From positions 1 to 64,000 of the forward strand of contig JAUSPT010000055.1 of the NCBI GenBank assembly GCA_030652805.1: a DNA stretch of 64,000 nt, read 5' to 3'. The translations under genes and the position numbers were made by a program. Positions within the stretch are counted from its first letter, which is position 1; each line of letters begins with the position of its first letter. This DNA is from a bacterium (GTDB taxonomy: Bacteria; JAHJDO01). The notes beneath the pieces were generated by a model. It was not told the DNA's origin and ran no database searches. It saw only the letters and a list, made by a program, of their open reading frames with translations. This document shows, in pieces, positions 17,061 to 25,849 of the stretch.

Positions 17061-19220
17061 ATGGATACAGTCTTAAGTTCCTTAAATCCTGCTCAAAAAG
17101 AAGCTGTTATATATCATAATGCTCCGCTTCTTATACTGGCTGGGGCCGGCAGCGGCAAGACACGCGTACTGACTCATAGAATTGCATACTTTATTAAGAA
17201 AGGTGTAAGTCCCTCTACCATAATAGCAGTAACATTTACAAATAAGGCTGCAGAGGAGATGCGGAAACGTATCAGCTCTCTTGTAGAATCTTTTAAAAGG
17301 GAATTGTGGATAGGCACATTCCATTCTGTTTGTCTTAGAATTCTGAAGAGCGAAAAGATAGTGCCGGATTTCATAATATATGATGAAGCAGACCAAACTA
17401 ATCTCGTAAAGGAATGCATTAAAAGATTGAATTTAAGCGATAAACAATTTCGACCTAAAGCCGTTCTGGAAAAGATAAGCAGAGCAAAGGATGCACTTCT
17501 TGATATTGATGAATATAGCGAATTTTGCGGGAATTTTTATGAGAAAAAAGTTGCTGATATTTACAAAGAATATCAAATACGCCTTAAAGAAATAAAAGCC
17601 CTTGATTTTGGAGATCTTATAATGAACACAGTTAAGATATTTAATGACTTTCCTGATATTCTGGATAAGTATCGTAGTAAATTCAGGCATATTTTTGTTG
17701 ATGAATATCAGGATACAAACCATGCTCAATATGAACTAATTCGGCTTCTTGCTGTTGGATGCGCAAGTATATCTGTTGTAGGAGATCCTGATCAATCAAT
17801 ATATAAATGGCGAGGAGCAGATATTTCTAATATCATGAATTTTGAAAGGGATTTTGCAGGAGCTAAGATAATAAAGCTTGAGGAGAATTATCGTTCAACA
17901 CAGGCGATTTTATCTGCAGCAAATAGTGTGATTAAAAATAACACAAATAGAAAAGAAAAAAGTTTGTGGACTCGTAATCTTGAAGGAGCTAATCCAATAT
18001 ATTATCAAGCGTATGATGAAATAGAAGAAGCAAAGTTTATCTCAGAACAAATAAAAAATTTGCTTATAAACAACAATAAAACCTATAAGAATATTGCAAT
18101 ATTCTATCGTGTACACGCATTATCAAGACTGCTCGAAGATAGTTTCAGACGCGAAGGCATACCATATAAAATAATTGGCGGAGTAAGATTTTATGATAGA
18201 AAAGAGGTTAAGGATATACTTGGATATTTGAGAATGATATCCAACCCGAACGATTTGATTAATATAAAAAGAATTATCAATCTGCCTCCAAGAGGTATTG
18301 GAGACACAACGTTAAAAAAGCTGGAGAAGTCTGCGAAAGAAAAGAAGCTACCCCTATTCAGCATCTTGGATAAGATTGCTAACGTTTCTGATCTAACTTC
18401 AGGAACAAAGAACAAGATAAAAAATTTTGTGAATATTATTAAAAAATATCAGACTTTTAAAGGAAGTATCACTAAAATGGCAAAAGATCTAATAGCAGAG
18501 ATAAATTATACAGGTTACCTTCATAGTACAGACCCAAGCACTGCGAATGAAAGAGAGGAGAATGTCTTTGGGGTTGTTTCTGCAATTGCAGAATATGAGG
18601 AAAAAACACAGAATCCACTGCTTAGAGATTTTTTAGATCAGGTTGCACTTCTCTCTAATGTTGATAACTGGGATTCTGAAAGTAATGCAATTACATTAAT
18701 GACTGTTCATGGCGCTAAGGGATTGGAATTTCCAGTCTGTTTTATGGCAGGAATGGAGGAGGATATTTTCCCGCATATAAATTCTTCACTCGAGACAAGT
18801 GACCTTGAAGAAGAAAGACGTCTTTGCTATGTAGGTATGACAAGAGCAAAGGAAAAGCTGTATCTCTCGTCAGCTTTAAGAAGAAGGCTTCACGGCACAT
18901 GGAGAAATACCGTAACATCAAGATTTATAGACGAAATTCCTGACAATTTATTGGTTAAAACATATAAAAGAACCAGTTTAGATAAATCTGCTTTCTCCTC
19001 TCAGAATAACTTCACAGATAATAGTCTAAGATATGAAAGCTTAGAAGATGATGCCTATGCATATAAGGTAGGGCAGAGAATTATGCATCCAAAATGGGGA
19101 CGAGGAACAGTTGTCAGTAAAACCGGGCGTGGAGATAAGACAAAGCTTACAGTTCATTTCTGGAAGGAAAATATTAGAAAAACCTTATTAGTTAAATATG
19201 CGAATCTGAGGAATGAATAG
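17061..19220 (+). CDS. pcrA: UvrD/PcrA family DNA helicase
   Basis: This 719-aa 3'-5' superfamily 1 helicase acts in repair and in clearing protein-DNA complexes. Motif I is AGAGSGKT, motif Ia TFTNKAA, motif II VDEYQDTN, motif III VGDPDQSIYKWRGAD, motif IV NYRST and motif VI YVGMTRAK. The C-terminus (YKVGQRIMHPKWGRGTVV) is the Tudor-like tail typical of PcrA. The start at 17061 is supported by a promoter with its -10 just 7 bases upstream. The end overlaps a convergent glycosyltransferase by 29 bases. Confidence 0.95.
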   Translation: MDTVLSSLNPAQKEAVIYHNAPLLILAGAGSGKTRVLTHRIAYFIKKGVSPSTIIAVTFTNKAAEEMRKRISSLVESFKRELWIGTFHSVCLRILKSEKIVPDFIIYDEADQTNLVKECIKRLNLSDKQFRPKAVLEKISRAKDALLDIDEYSEFCGNFYEKKVADIYKEYQIRLKEIKALDFGDLIMNTVKIFNDFPDILDKYRSKFRHIFVDEYQDTNHAQYELIRLLAVGCASISVVGDPDQSIYKWRGADISNIMNFERDFAGAKIIKLEENYRSTQAILSAANSVIKNNTNRKEKSLWTRNLEGANPIYYQAYDEIEEAKFISEQIKNLLINNNKTYKNIAIFYRVHALSRLLEDSFRREGIPYKIIGGVRFYDRKEVKDILGYLRMISNPNDLINIKRIINLPPRGIGDTTLKKLEKSAKEKKLPLFSILDKIANVSDLTSGTKNKIKNFVNIIKKYQTFKGSITKMAKDLIAEINYTGYLHSTDPSTANEREENVFGVVSAIAEYEEKTQNPLLRDFLDQVALLSNVDNWDSESNAITLMTVHGAKGLEFPVCFMAGMEEDIFPHINSSLETSDLEEERRLCYVGMTRAKEKLYLSSALRRRLHGTWRNTVTSRFIDEIPDNLLVKTYKRTSLDKSAFSSQNNFTDNSLRYESLEDDAYAYKVGQRIMHPKWGRGTVVSKTGRGDKTKLTVHFWKENIRKTLLVKYANLRNE

Positions 19221-20367
19221 TTCTGTAAATCTCCAAAATGCGCTTTGCATTGTGTTCCCATGTATAAGAATTTGATACCTTATACCTTGCATTAGAGCCC
19301 AATCTTTTCCTGAGCGCAGGGTCGCTAAAGAGTTTTGTAATGTTGTTTGCAAGCTGTTCTTGATCCCCGGGTTTGATTAATAATATTTCTTTTTCATTTT
19401 CAAAGAATCTATTCATTTGTCCTTGTGCTGGGGCAATAGTAGGTTTAGCCATTGCCATATATTCAAAAATTTTAACGGGGGAGCTATAAATACTCATATT
19501 GGGAAGAACTGTTATATCCATTGCTGCAATATATGCCGGTATATCATTATGTGAAACAGCGCCAGTAAAAGTAACAATATTCTCTAATTTATTATTTTTA
19601 ACAAAATTTTTTAATTTATGTTCTTCAAATCCCTCTCCAACTATAAGGAAGTGAATATCCGGTATTTGCTGTTTGCATTTTTCTGCTGCATCAAGAAATA
19701 GAGAGAGGCCCTGTCTTTTACTGAGACTTCCAACAAATCCAACAATTTGTTTTTTTTCAAGTTTATATTTTTTTCTAATGGGACTTCCAGATATCTCTGG
19801 ATTGAATTTTTCGGAATCTACACCATCAGGGACTTCAAAAACCTTGCTTTTATCTACCCCTTTTCTGATAACATAGTCTCTAAGATTATCTGTCGTTATA
19901 ATTATTGCTCCAGCACTTCTGAATATATTGTTTTCCACATATCTGGCTAAAGGTCTGAAATTTAATCTCCGCTTAGGACCCCACAAAAGTGCTGCATTAA
20001 CCTCTAATATAAAAGGTATGTTGAATTTTTGAGCTAACTTCATCCCTGCGCTTCCATAAAGCTCATATCGTTCATAGATTAAATCAGGCTTTGCGTTGTT
20101 AAATAGGATCCTGGCTTTTTTGTAGAGCTTGCTGCTTGTAAAGGTCATTCTTAGATCAGAACCCAATTTCTTTGATGTAAATGGTGATACTTCGTGGATC
20201 GTATATTGACCATTTTCATGGTTTTTCGCGCCCTTATTTGTTGTGATCGCAAATACTTCATGATTCAATTTAATTAAAGCATTAATAACTTCGCGTATAT
20301 GAATGGAAGCGCCCTTTACTCCCATTAATGGAATTTGGCTGTCTTCACAGATGTATGATATCTTCAT
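19192..20367 (-). CDS. GT4 family glycosyltransferase
   Basis: The 391-aa enzyme has a GT-B fold with the N-terminal loop GVKGASIHIREVINAL. The C-terminal donor domain has IVGFVGSLSKRQG and the E-x7-E type region SPVKIFEYMAMAKPTIAP. It should transfer a nucleotide-activated sugar to a lipid or polysaccharide acceptor. It is the last gene of a minus-strand group with fxsA, a PilZ protein and another GT4, and overlaps pcrA tail to tail. Confidence 0.87.
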   Translation of the reverse strand: MKISYICEDSQIPLMGVKGASIHIREVINALIKLNHEVFAITTNKGAKNHENGQYTIHEVSPFTSKKLGSDLRMTFTSSKLYKKARILFNNAKPDLIYERYELYGSAGMKLAQKFNIPFILEVNAALLWGPKRRLNFRPLARYVENNIFRSAGAIIITTDNLRDYVIRKGVDKSKVFEVPDGVDSEKFNPEISGSPIRKKYKLEKKQIVGFVGSLSKRQGLSLFLDAAEKCKQQIPDIHFLIVGEGFEEHKLKNFVKNNKLENIVTFTGAVSHNDIPAYIAAMDITVLPNMSIYSSPVKIFEYMAMAKPTIAPAQGQMNRFFENEKEILLIKPGDQEQLANNITKLFSDPALRKRLGSNARYKVSNSYTWEHNAKRILEIYRTIHSSDSHI

Positions 20368-20773: not shown

Positions 20774-21196
20774 TCATCTTTTATAGTTTTCAAAGTATTC
20801 ATCTCTAACATAGTTGCGGATTTTCAGACGGTCTTCATACAAAATAGATATAAATTCTATCCCGCATACATCTCTTTTGAAGTCTATCCAGGCAACTTTG
20901 CCAACAGTGTTAATGTCTTCCTTCTTTTCGCCATGAATTGAAATTATTAGTTTTAATTCCGTTTCTTCTTTTATGCTTGTCTTTAAAAGTTCTTTCAAAT
21001 CCTCGTTTTCCATGCATAGTCCTCCTTCACAGATGTCTTTTGTATGCCCACTGTATTTTAATTCAACAGAATCTAACAGGTCATATTGAACAGGAATTTC
21101 TTTATCAAGCTTAATAATCCCATATTTTACCCTAAAGGCTTTCTCAAGTCTGATATACTCTCTTCTATTTTTTTGTGTATCTTTTCTCCAAAACAT
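20774..21196 (-). CDS. PilZ domain protein
   Basis: A 140-aa single-domain protein. PilZ binds cyclic di-GMP through an RxxxR motif (here RREYIR, residues about 11-16) and D/NxSxxG (here DICEGG). The Ser of the second motif is Cys, which may weaken binding. It is 4 bases from the upstream GT4 gene and 9 from fxsA. The neighbourhood suggests that it tunes polysaccharide synthesis or export in response to cyclic di-GMP. Confidence 0.8.
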   Translation of the reverse strand: MFWRKDTQKNRREYIRLEKAFRVKYGIIKLDKEIPVQYDLLDSVELKYSGHTKDICEGGLCMENEDLKELLKTSIKEETELKLIISIHGEKKEDINTVGKVAWIDFKRDVCGIEFISILYEDRLKIRNYVRDEYFENYKR

Positions 21197-21200
21197 ATAT

Positions 21201-22349
21201 TTATCCTATTTTATCTAACTTAACTCTCCTAAGTAAAAGAGTGTACAAATTCTCCGTTTTTTCAACCATTCTGTCAATACTAAAGTTTAGCACTCTTTTC
21301 TCTGCCTCTTCTCCCATCTTTTTTGCCAGTTCTTGATTATTAATTAGATTGAGACTATATAAAGCCAGGTCCTCAGGAGATTGAGGCGGGATGATAAAGC
21401 CTGTTTCTCCATGTTTTACAACTTCACTATTACCTCCAACGTCTGTTACAACAACAGGTTTTCCAGCAGCCATTGATTCTAGAACTGTTATTGAGAATCC
21501 CTCTCTTAAAGAAGTCAGAACAGATATATCAGACATTGCAAGAATTTGTGGAATGTCCTCTCTCAAACCTGTAAATATTACATTTTTGCTAATCCCTAAA
21601 TCGTCTGAGGCAGTTTTTAACTGGCTTTCTAATGGGCCGTCACCTACAACTAAAAATTTTACGTTTGGTTTTTTCTTTCTTATTATTTGAGCTGCCTTTA
21701 AAAAGTAAACGTGTCCTTTCTGCTGCTGCAAGCGTCCTATTATAGTTATAATTTTTTCATCTGGTTTTATCCCAAATTCTTCCCTTTTTTTGTTTATATT
21801 CACATAAGTTTGAAATTTTGAAATATCAACTCCATTATAAATTGTAATAATTTTATCTTCAGATATCCCTATTTTTTTAACATAAAAATCTTTGACTGCA
21901 TCAGACACAGCAATAATTTTATTTGTAATTCCTGCTAATACTCTGTCACTCAATCTCTGGGGAAATTTCTTCCATGAATCAATATTGTGTTCATTAGTTA
22001 TTATTACTGGTATTCCTGCTAATTTAGCAGCAATTCTTCCTGCAAGGTTCGCTCTATACAGATGAGTATGAACAATGTCTATTTGCATCTTTTTCATAAG
22101 GCGTGCCAGTCTCAATATACCTGCTATGTATTTCCCGTCAAAGTCCAGTCGTGCTCTCATTCTAAACTTGATAATAGGAATACCTAAAGATTCCATAATA
22201 TCTGCCAGTTTATCCCGTTTAAAAAGACAGCACAGATAAACCTTATATTGACACTTATCTAATCTTGGAAGTATGGATGTCAGTGTTCTTTCAACACCAC
22301 CCATTTCAAGAGAAGGGACTATGCGGAGAATTCTAACTGGCTTTTTCAT
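21201..22349 (-). CDS. GT4 family glycosyltransferase
   Basis: The 382-aa protein has the N-terminal acceptor domain signature PSLEMGGVERTLTSILPRL and HTHLYRANLAGRIAA. The donor domain has IIGRLQQQKGHVYFLKAA and the REGFSITVLESMAAGKPVVVTDVGG stretch with its catalytic glutamates. It is typical of polysaccharide and cell-surface glycan enzymes. It heads the run GT4-PilZ-FxsA-GT4. Confidence 0.9.
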   Translation of the reverse strand: MKKPVRILRIVPSLEMGGVERTLTSILPRLDKCQYKVYLCCLFKRDKLADIMESLGIPIIKFRMRARLDFDGKYIAGILRLARLMKKMQIDIVHTHLYRANLAGRIAAKLAGIPVIITNEHNIDSWKKFPQRLSDRVLAGITNKIIAVSDAVKDFYVKKIGISEDKIITIYNGVDISKFQTYVNINKKREEFGIKPDEKIITIIGRLQQQKGHVYFLKAAQIIRKKKPNVKFLVVGDGPLESQLKTASDDLGISKNVIFTGLREDIPQILAMSDISVLTSLREGFSITVLESMAAGKPVVVTDVGGNSEVVKHGETGFIIPPQSPEDLALYSLNLINNQELAKKMGEEAEKRVLNFSIDRMVEKTENLYTLLLRRVKLDKIG

Positions 22350-22443: not shown

Positions 22444-23286
22444 TTAAGAAGAAGTTTTTATTTCATCAATAAATCGAGAAAGAGCGGTTTCTGTTTCCTT
22501 ATCGTTTGAGATAAATTGTATCCCAATATTGTAATCTTCTTTTTTCTGTAAGCGCCAGACTGTCTGTCCATTTATTTCTAAATATTTTTTGACATCCAAC
22601 ACAGGAATTCTTACTTGAAGTTTTATATCTTCTTTTATTTCGGAGTCATTTGTATCCTCATGCTTTGGTAGCGTTATACAGATCCCACCAAGGCTTATAT
22701 CTTTTGTATAGCCATAGTATACAACCAGATGTTTTTCCGAATCTTTTTGCAATCTTAACTCAACAGCTTCATCAACGGCATATCGCGAATATTTCCTTCG
22801 CTCTTGATTCATATCACTTTCTTTCTCAGGAGGTTTTTCCTCCATAGCAATTAGTTTTATTATGTCTTCTGAAGATGTAGCACTCATCAAGTCATCCCTG
22901 AAAGCTTTTTCTCCAAGAAGGCGGGATATTCTGGCTAGAGTTTTCAAGTGCGGACAAATTTCTCTATTTGGAGAAATAATCATAAAGAAAAGATTTACAG
23001 GCTTATTATCAATTGCATCAAAGTTTATGCCTTTTTTTGATCTTCCAAAAACGATAATTTTTTCTTTAATAGAAGATGTTTCTGCATGCGGGATAGCAAC
23101 TCCATTCCCTACCGCAGTGCTGCCATGTGCTTCTCTCTCTAAAATAGCTTTATGCAGTGTATTTTCTGAATTGGCAAACCCTTTTTTTATTATCGGAGAT
23201 ATTAACTCTTTAATTGCATCTTCTTTTTTATCAGATGAAAGATCAAGAAGAACTAACTCTTTTCGCATGTAATCAGAAAGACTCAC
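22444..23286 (-). CDS. PTS EIIA (fructose/nitrogen type) fused to PilZ
   Basis: This 280-aa protein joins two signalling domains. Residues 1-150 are a PTS EIIA-2/PtsN-like domain with the phosphorylatable His in GVAIPHAET and the following SKKGINFDA, FFMIISP and HLKTLARISRLL. Residues about 160-275 are a PilZ domain with RRKYSR (RxxxR) and DISLGG (DxSxxG), both intact. It could read a phosphorelay signal and cyclic di-GMP together. The EIIA could receive phosphate from HPr or be used purely for signalling. No PTS permease is nearby. Flanking genes are glycosyltransferases and a PAS-HTH regulator. Confidence 0.88.
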   Translation of the reverse strand: MSLSDYMRKELVLLDLSSDKKEDAIKELISPIIKKGFANSENTLHKAILEREAHGSTAVGNGVAIPHAETSSIKEKIIVFGRSKKGINFDAIDNKPVNLFFMIISPNREICPHLKTLARISRLLGEKAFRDDLMSATSSEDIIKLIAMEEKPPEKESDMNQERRKYSRYAVDEAVELRLQKDSEKHLVVYYGYTKDISLGGICITLPKHEDTNDSEIKEDIKLQVRIPVLDVKKYLEINGQTVWRLQKKEDYNIGIQFISNDKETETALSRFIDEIKTSS

Positions 23287-23387: not shown

Positions 23388-24737
23388 TTAAATGGTTTGG
23401 AGGAAAGAAACTAAGTTAATATCTTTTTTACGTATTCCCATTTTATGTCTGATATTTTTGCGGTGTTTTTCAACTGTCTGGTAAGAAATATTTAAAAGCC
23501 CGGAAATCTCTTTGCTTGTGAGCCTGCCTTTTATCATATTGCAGATTTCAATTTCCCTTGGAGTCAGATTAAGTCTTTTCCCTCTTATTTTACGGCCAAA
23601 CGAAGACACCAATTCCCCTAAATGGTTTTTTAATAAATCAACATATTTACCGGCGGTCTTCTCTAATTTAAGTTTTTCTAAAATCGGAAACAATAATTCA
23701 TTTACATTAGCCGCTATATCATTTTTTATTTTTCTTTTTTCCACTTCAATCTGCGCTATGATTTCGCTGAGCGCAATGTTTTTTTGTTCTAAAGCCGATT
23801 TTTGTCTCTGCAATTTTGCTGCCGTCTCTTTCAACGTCTTCTCTGTCCCCTTACGCTCGGTGATGTCCCAAGAAATACCCAATAGCCCAACGATGTTGTC
23901 CCGTTCATCCCTAGCAGGACACTTGACTGTGTATTCAATGCATTCTTTTCCATTTATGACACGTTTATCTTCTATTTCTTCTGTTTTTCCGGATTTGATA
24001 ATCCTTTCATCATCTGCTCTATATTTCTCAGCTAGTTCCTTTGGAAAGAAATCATAATCTGTTTTTCCTGCGATTTCTTCACGCCTGATTTTTTTGTCTC
24101 GTACAAAGCTTTCGTTACAAGAGATAAAAACCAAATTGCTGTCCAATAAAAATACCTTCTGAGGAAGATTCTCAAGAAGTGTTTTGTACTTGTTTTTACT
24201 ATTACGCAGCTCCTCCTCTGTGAGTTTGCGTTCAGTGATTTCCTTTTCAAGTTCTGCTGTACGACTATCGACTATGTCTTCCAGATGATCGCGGTACTTT
24301 TTTAATTCCTTCTCTATCCTCTTGCGTCCTGTAATATCTCTGACTGTCGCCTGCAGGAAAGTTTTTTCTCCGATAGTCATTCTTGTCAGCAAAACGGAGC
24401 AAAAGAAGTCCTTGCCATTCCGCTTTTTGTGCGTCCACTCAAAAAAGTTTGACCCTTTTTTCATTGCTATGCCAATCATTTTTTTTGCTTTATTTGCGGA
24501 GGTTTGTCCGTCCGGCTGAAACTCTGGAGAGTACTTCCACGGAGGCGCAGAAATAAACGTTTCTTCATCTTTCACGCCAAACAGTCCAAGCGTGGCAGTA
24601 TTCCCTGAAGTAAAATTCCAAGATGGCGGAGCAAGTGTCATTATTGCGTCACGTGAAGTTTTAAATAAGAGCCGATATCTTTCCTCGCTTTCCCGCAGAG
24701 CTTCTTTCGCACTTTTTAATTCGAATATATTCGTCAT
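23388..24737 (-). CDS. PAS-PAS LuxR-type transcriptional regulator
   Basis: The 449-aa soluble protein has two PAS domains (about 15-140 and 180-295) joined by a coiled coil, a second coiled coil and a C-terminal LuxR/FixJ helix-turn-helix (LTPREIEICNMIKGRLTSKEI and TVEKHRKNIRHKMG). It has no histidine kinase or receiver domain, so the PAS domains would feed the DNA-binding domain directly. It overlaps the upstream GT4 gene by 4 bases (ATGA), tying the regulator to glycan genes. Confidence 0.85.
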   Translation of the reverse strand: MTNIFELKSAKEALRESEERYRLLFKTSRDAIMTLAPPSWNFTSGNTATLGLFGVKDEETFISAPPWKYSPEFQPDGQTSANKAKKMIGIAMKKGSNFFEWTHKKRNGKDFFCSVLLTRMTIGEKTFLQATVRDITGRKRIEKELKKYRDHLEDIVDSRTAELEKEITERKLTEEELRNSKNKYKTLLENLPQKVFLLDSNLVFISCNESFVRDKKIRREEIAGKTDYDFFPKELAEKYRADDERIIKSGKTEEIEDKRVINGKECIEYTVKCPARDERDNIVGLLGISWDITERKGTEKTLKETAAKLQRQKSALEQKNIALSEIIAQIEVEKRKIKNDIAANVNELLFPILEKLKLEKTAGKYVDLLKNHLGELVSSFGRKIRGKRLNLTPREIEICNMIKGRLTSKEISGLLNISYQTVEKHRKNIRHKMGIRKKDINLVSFLQTI

Positions 24738-25849
24738 CGATACACCTCCGCTGTTAGCTGTGCAAGTCTCGTTTCTGAGAATTCATTAATGATAACTTGT
24801 TTTCCTTTTCTTGCCATTTCTAAGGCTTTCTCCATATTGTTTATTGCTTCAAAAATAGCATTGGCTAAAGCTTCAGGATTATGAGGAGGAACTAATACAC
24901 CGGTAATTCCGTCCTGAACAATTTCAGGAATACCGCCTGCGTTAGTTGAAACAACAGGTTTTTCCATAATAAGTGCTTCCTTGATTACAGCAGGGGATCC
25001 TTCAACAGAAGACGAGAGTACAAATATATCAATCCCTGAGAGAATTTGGGGTATACTCTCTCTTTTACCTGCGAATATAACGTAATTACTTAATTTCATT
25101 TTTTGAACCATGCTTTTAAGTTGCGATTCAAGAATTCCATCTCCAACAATCAGCAATTTAATATTCCTGAATTTTTCAATAATAATCTTTAGTGCCTCAA
25201 ACATATTAGGATAATCTTTATGCTCTCTTAATCTTCCTACCATTCCTAAAACAACAGTATCAGGTAAGATTCCAAACTCGTTACGTATTTTCCCACTATC
25301 AAACTCGCCCTTAAACTTTTTTGTGTCTATAGAACTATGAATAGTGATGATTTTATTCTCGGAAATGTTATTTTCATCAATTAGCTGTCTTTTTATTACT
25401 TCAGCCACTGCTATTATTCTATCTGTCCATTCTTTATAAAGTTTATTGTTTATCCAGTTGTTTTTTATTCTTGTGAAATTATGGCGTGTGCGGATAATTT
25501 TGCATTGACCGGACAAGCCAAATAATCTAACAGCCAAGACACCAATCCAGTGGTCTGATGAACGGTGTGTGTGCAAGATATCAACTTTATGAGTTTTTAA
25601 AAACCGTGACAGTTTCCATATAACTACCGGGTTAAATTTCCATCTGCCTATTTTAAGAGACAATAACGGGATATTATACGAACCTGCTTTTTTACATAAT
25701 GGACTTGACGGAGATACAGCTAAAATTATTTTAAACTGCTTACTGTTAAGCGATCTGCTGATTGAGAATATTCTCTGCTCTATCCCGCTCCAAACCTCAC
25801 CTGCGTCTATGTGTAAGACAGTTCGTAATTTAGACAAAACTTTCAGCAT
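24734..25849 (-). CDS. GT4 family glycosyltransferase
   Basis: The 371-aa GT-B enzyme has VWSGIEQRIFSIS and HTHRSSDHWIGVLAVRLFG in the acceptor domain. The donor domain carries VLGMVGRLREHKDYPNMFEA and SVEGSPAVIKEALIMEKPVV. It begins 5 bases after the YhcG-like gene and overlaps the PAS-LuxR gene. The acceptor is unknown. Confidence 0.88.
   Translation of the reverse strand: MLKVLSKLRTVLHIDAGEVWSGIEQRIFSISRSLNSKQFKIILAVSPSSPLCKKAGSYNIPLLSLKIGRWKFNPVVIWKLSRFLKTHKVDILHTHRSSDHWIGVLAVRLFGLSGQCKIIRTRHNFTRIKNNWINNKLYKEWTDRIIAVAEVIKRQLIDENNISENKIITIHSSIDTKKFKGEFDSGKIRNEFGILPDTVVLGMVGRLREHKDYPNMFEALKIIIEKFRNIKLLIVGDGILESQLKSMVQKMKLSNYVIFAGKRESIPQILSGIDIFVLSSSVEGSPAVIKEALIMEKPVVSTNAGGIPEIVQDGITGVLVPPHNPEALANAIFEAINNMEKALEMARKGKQVIINEFSETRLAQLTAEVYR

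Follow-up and report, generated by a model that had tools for sequence, protein, structure and literature searches.

A PilZ domain joined to a PTS EIIA domain in one bacterial genus: a candidate two-input adaptor for PTS and c-di-GMP signals

We identified a gene encoding a PTS EIIA domain and a PilZ domain in a single 280-aa protein within a 64,000-nucleotide stretch of bacterial DNA (hereafter, the window). Judging from the sequence and the modelled fold, we lean toward the view that this protein is a soluble two-input adaptor in which PTS phosphorylation and c-di-GMP would jointly set the output. Both halves belong to known families, and their combination is known only from five related genomes within the scope of our searches.

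The fusion gene occupies positions 22444 to 23286 of the minus strand and begins with a GTG start codon with AGGAG just 5' of it. Read on the plus strand, the same interval contains stops throughout, and the coding ORF lies on the minus strand with exactly these coordinates. A Pfam search of the protein returned PTS_EIIA_2 and PilZ and no further domain. A first-pass annotation, which did not state the strand, had described a PTS EIIA fused to PilZ here, with a phospho-His site, GVAIPHAET, kept in residues 1-150 and both PilZ motifs kept in residues 160-275; the minus-strand ORF, the motifs and the Pfam scores given below bear out this description. The methionine within ESDMNQERRKY is a candidate internal start that would yield a separate PilZ protein; however, this residue is missing from the fused relatives L022 and L023.

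The EIIA half (22837 to 23286, minus strand; residues 1-150) matched the PTS_EIIA_2 profile at residues 6-147 (135.2 bits, E 2e-39; cut-off 27) and scored 118 against TIGR00848 (cut-off 103.5). The histidine of GVAIPHAET is the predicted phosphosite H67. In an alignment to the EIIANtr structure 1a6j, H67 falls on H73 and H113 on H120, the second active-site histidine; these 1a6j residue numbers follow the alignment and established knowledge. H67 and H113 are invariant in six of six aligned fused proteins (five genomes, with two copies in G002). Foldseek matched the modelled first half to EIIANtr structures with TM scores of 0.81-0.92 on the target, 2a0j reaching 0.92. We rejected orthology with PtsN (EIIANtr) because the equivalog cut-offs were missed (TIGR01419, 86.1 vs 138.7; NF008145, 85 vs 221). 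A separate EIIA is encoded in the hpf-hprK cluster of the same genome.

The PilZ half (22447 to 22806, minus strand; residues 161-280) matched the Pfam PilZ profile at residues 162-274 (56.1 bits, E 5e-15; cut-off 22.5). It carries the ligand motifs RKYSR (RxxxR at 164-168, with R164 and R168) and DISLGG (DxSxxG at 196-201, with D196, S198 and G201), and RxxxR and [D/N]xSxxG are kept in all 14 related PilZ modules that we aligned. Foldseek matched the second half to the c-di-GMP-bound PilZ domain of YcgR (5y6g), to the PilZ domain of a cellulose synthase of the BcsA type (4i86) and to Alg44 (4rt0); against these three and 4xrn, the AF2 model of the PilZ half gave TMt values of about 0.65-0.75. 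A PDB sequence search with the PilZ half retrieved no close relative. The protein was also considered as a YcgR flagellar brake, and this was rejected on its Pfam content, which is PTS_EIIA_2 and PilZ with no YcgR_N.

An AlphaFold model of the 280-aa protein, built from 54 sequences, had a mean pLDDT of 83.5 and a pTM of 0.56. The EIIA block was confidently modelled (pLDDT mostly 84-96) and the PilZ blocks with moderate confidence (60-85), while the linker was disordered, with pLDDT below 50 at residues 154-163. This linker (22807 to 22836, minus strand; about residues 151-160) lies just N-terminal of the PilZ RxxxR motif. In an alignment of the fused relatives it is gapped and poorly conserved, and it varies in length and sequence.

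The EIIA-PilZ fusion was present in all five genomes examined from the phylum-level group, which together represent one genus. Relatives of the genus include the MAGs CSMAG_2459, CSMAG_1431 and CSMAG_1337; CSMAG probably stands for 'cold seep MAG', and the host, an uncultured bacterium, is probably from a cold seep. The fused relatives are 91, 88, 81 and 69% identical to the window protein, and a second copy in G002 is also 69% identical; all six proteins retain H67, H113, RxxxR and [D/N]xSxxG. Pairwise dN/dS was 0.17-0.26 for the EIIA half and mostly 0.20-0.33 for the PilZ half, with a value of 0.56 in one pair that has few synonymous changes. Both halves are under purifying selection. We rejected an assembly or frameshift artefact because all five genomes carry the intact fusion and dN/dS lies well under 1. 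Between G000 and G002, dS was 0.08 in the PilZ half and 0.36 in the EIIA half (window positions 22447 to 23286), a difference suggesting that the PilZ module may have recombined.

Outside the genus, the closest EIIA among the matches listed came from an Omnitrophota MAG (L057) and was 65% identical over residues 1-150. It ends as a stand-alone protein of 151 aa and clusters with the fused clade in a tree (support 97/94). Among 384 Omnitrophota, 392 Planctomycetota-group and 16 Elusimicrobiota-group genomes, no match listed covers both halves, in a scan that scored the best candidates per genome and that rare independent fusions could escape. We read sampled long open frames around EIIA genes from both Omnitrophota and Planctomycetota; most reflected read-through from upstream or fusions of another kind, and none contained PilZ. 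Two Planctomycetota-group loci (L177; G744:C41:5869-6330 and G578:C3:132372-132833) place EIIA inside 1096-aa open frames; the stretch after EIIA in L177 resembles, by eye, the N-terminus of a cation-transport P-type ATPase, and may represent an EIIA-ATPase fusion. No plasmid record gave a match over 80% of the query, and a viral origin was rejected on finding viral contigs without relatives of the EIIA-PilZ protein. A search of open-licence papers for EIIA or PtsN with PilZ found no such fusion described. The first-pass annotation had called the architecture unusual, a claim that a common and already described fusion would have undone; the literature search and genome scans turned up no other EIIA-PilZ fusion, and within the searchable genomes the architecture is conserved in the genus and rare in the phyla covered.

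The nearest relatives of the PilZ half are found at the C-termini of Hanks-type Ser/Thr kinases (in G000, G001 and twice in G002) and in small stand-alone proteins. The PilZ part of one kinase-PilZ protein (G000:C70) shares 58-67% identity with the PilZ half of the window protein, and in G002 the second EIIA-PilZ gene is followed directly, in tandem, by a kinase-PilZ gene. The occurrence of the same PilZ on a kinase and on EIIA is consistent with a transferable sensor module. In a PilZ tree the fusion partners were not firmly separated, except that the five main EIIA-PilZ copies formed a clade (99/98). Two of the kinase-PilZ genes (L104:3411-4601, on G000:C70, and L025:1984-3138) retain the catalytic motifs of Hanks-type Ser/Thr kinases. 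We also observed a further EIIA-PilZ and kinase-PilZ pair in G002 (L030, G002:C88), in which the EIIA is intact and the PilZ is broken by stops, indicating that the PilZ half can be lost.

Partners for both proposed inputs are encoded in the genome. A cluster with the order hpf-EIIA-hprK-tpiA-HPr-EI lies on contig C24 (G000:C24) and supplies EI, HPr kinase and an HPr with its phospho-His motif. We counted seven EIIA_2 domains, 12 PilZ domains and four confident GGDEF diguanylate cyclase domains (one of them in the window), plus one sub-threshold GGDEF match. A profile search limited to the PF02378 family found no EIIC of this family in any of the five genomes, so the PTS looks regulatory; it looks as though EIIA is a reader that has been joined to several outputs. 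Other EIIA fusions occur in the same genome, namely an HTH_17-EIIA protein encoded next to a tandem pair of EIIAs and an amino-acid permease that ends in an EIIA domain (L100:5343-6053, L101:2969-4894). As a tentative account of its origin, which we hold to be possible but short of probable, the single-protein junction of PTS and c-di-GMP may have been made in this lineage when a mobile PilZ joined an EIIA of a regulatory PTS without PF02378 permeases; a sister event on a Ser/Thr kinase would let c-di-GMP feed both a His-phosphorelay branch and a Ser/Thr branch.

In the two-input adaptor that we favor, phosphate would pass from PEP through EI and HPr to His67 of the EIIA half, and phosphorylation of His67 would report on PEP and on energy state. 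On the other side, c-di-GMP would bind to the PilZ half via RxxxR and DxSxxG. Because RxxxR stands at the C-terminal end of a short flexible linker, we expect bound ligand to hold the linker fast and reorient EIIA relative to PilZ, in the manner of YcgR-type proteins. Both inputs would then shape the output, which is probably the binding of a partner protein. That one protein could combine PTS state with c-di-GMP had been suggested at first pass, and the suggestion is plausible to the extent that the architecture is real and partners for both inputs are encoded, with phosphotransfer and binding read from motifs and the predicted fold. Several observations weigh against this adaptor. The linker is variable and poorly predicted and the pTM is 0.56, so rigid coupling stays a proposal; c-di-GMP binding is absent or barely detectable in some PilZ proteins, according to one report (PMC3131395); and the G002:C88 copy has an EIIA with a broken PilZ.

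It may instead be that the protein is a one-way device, in which EIIA serves purely for interaction, PilZ does all of the regulatory sensing and c-di-GMP decides if EIIA acts, or where, with no true integration. PilZ modules of the same family on a kinase and as stand-alone proteins do give PilZ the look of a plug-in sensor. However, with both EIIA histidines invariant and EI and HPr encoded, phosphorylation probably still occurs, and we regard this arrangement as unlikely.

The gene neighborhood bears on a further alternative. Immediately upstream of the fusion lies a gene for a PAS-PAS-LuxR (GerE) regulator (23388 to 24737, minus strand; identified by Pfam), which holds this place in all five genomes. 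Immediately downstream is a group 1 glycosyltransferase gene (21201 to 22349, minus strand; Pfam), followed by a gene for a stand-alone PilZ protein (20774 to 21196, minus strand). This small protein keeps RxxxR, and its second motif is altered to DICEGG, in which Cys replaces the motif Ser. Further glycosyltransferases are encoded nearby at 24734 to 25849 and 19192 to 20367. A glycosyltransferase gene follows the fusion in G000, G001 and G004, other genes follow it in G003, and the G002 contig stops soon after the fusion gene. The glycosyltransferase and PilZ neighbors first noted for this locus are thus present in the window, but this setting is only partly conserved, holding in three of the genomes. 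Gaps of about 94-101 bp with promoter-like matches inside flank the fusion gene and disfavor a tight operon, though the gene may still be co-transcribed.

c-di-GMP often controls polysaccharide output. This common mode of control, the glycosyltransferase gene adjoining the fusion in three genomes and the small PilZ gene beyond it would suit a PilZ effector gated by the PTS, in which EIIA phosphorylation controls whether PilZ can reach c-di-GMP or a surface-polysaccharide target. Against such gating stand the different downstream region of G003 and the spacing and promoter-like matches that speak against a tight operon, and we consider it decidedly unlikely. Least probable, and very doubtful in our judgment, is a PilZ half that serves for dimerization or docking and does not bind c-di-GMP: the barely detectable binding of some PilZ proteins (PMC3131395) and the lack of a close PDB sequence relative would fit it, but the ligand motifs are kept across 14 modules and the modelled fold agrees with PilZ structures solved with c-di-GMP bound.

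Among bacterial control networks, the PTS and c-di-GMP are two of the most widespread, and the cross-talk described in the literature that we examined depends on separate proteins in contact with one another or on transcription. If the adaptor is real, a compact and natural single-chain link would offer a clean system in which to ask whether and how the two signals combine. The EIIA-PilZ protein could sense lifestyle signals together with energy status, and it supports the idea that evolution can turn a PTS without a sugar permease of the PF02378 class into a signalling hub whose outputs are swappable.

Comparison with known systems places the protein among several familiar designs. It resembles EIIANtr (PtsN) and fructose-type EIIA proteins in fold, in H67 and H113 and in its predicted phosphorylation by HPr, but it bears a C-terminal PilZ and falls under the PtsN equivalog cut-off. 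As in YcgR-type effectors, an RxxxR hinge connects its PilZ to a preceding N-terminal domain, but here that domain is EIIA. The permease-EIIA and HTH_17-EIIA proteins are encoded in the same genome, which has no PF02378 EIIC, and also join EIIA to an output module, but they have no second-messenger receptor domain. The Ser/Thr kinase-PilZ protein (G000:C70) shares the C-terminal PilZ module of the fusion and differs in its N-terminal Hanks-type kinase. Finally, EIIAGlc and PdeS of Vibrio cholerae, an example of PTS-to-c-di-GMP cross-talk between separate proteins, also tie PTS phosphorylation state to c-di-GMP (PMC6877527); that system, in contrast, is split over two proteins: its EIIA is of the glucose type and belongs to a different family, and the partner is a c-di-GMP phosphodiesterase, not a receptor.
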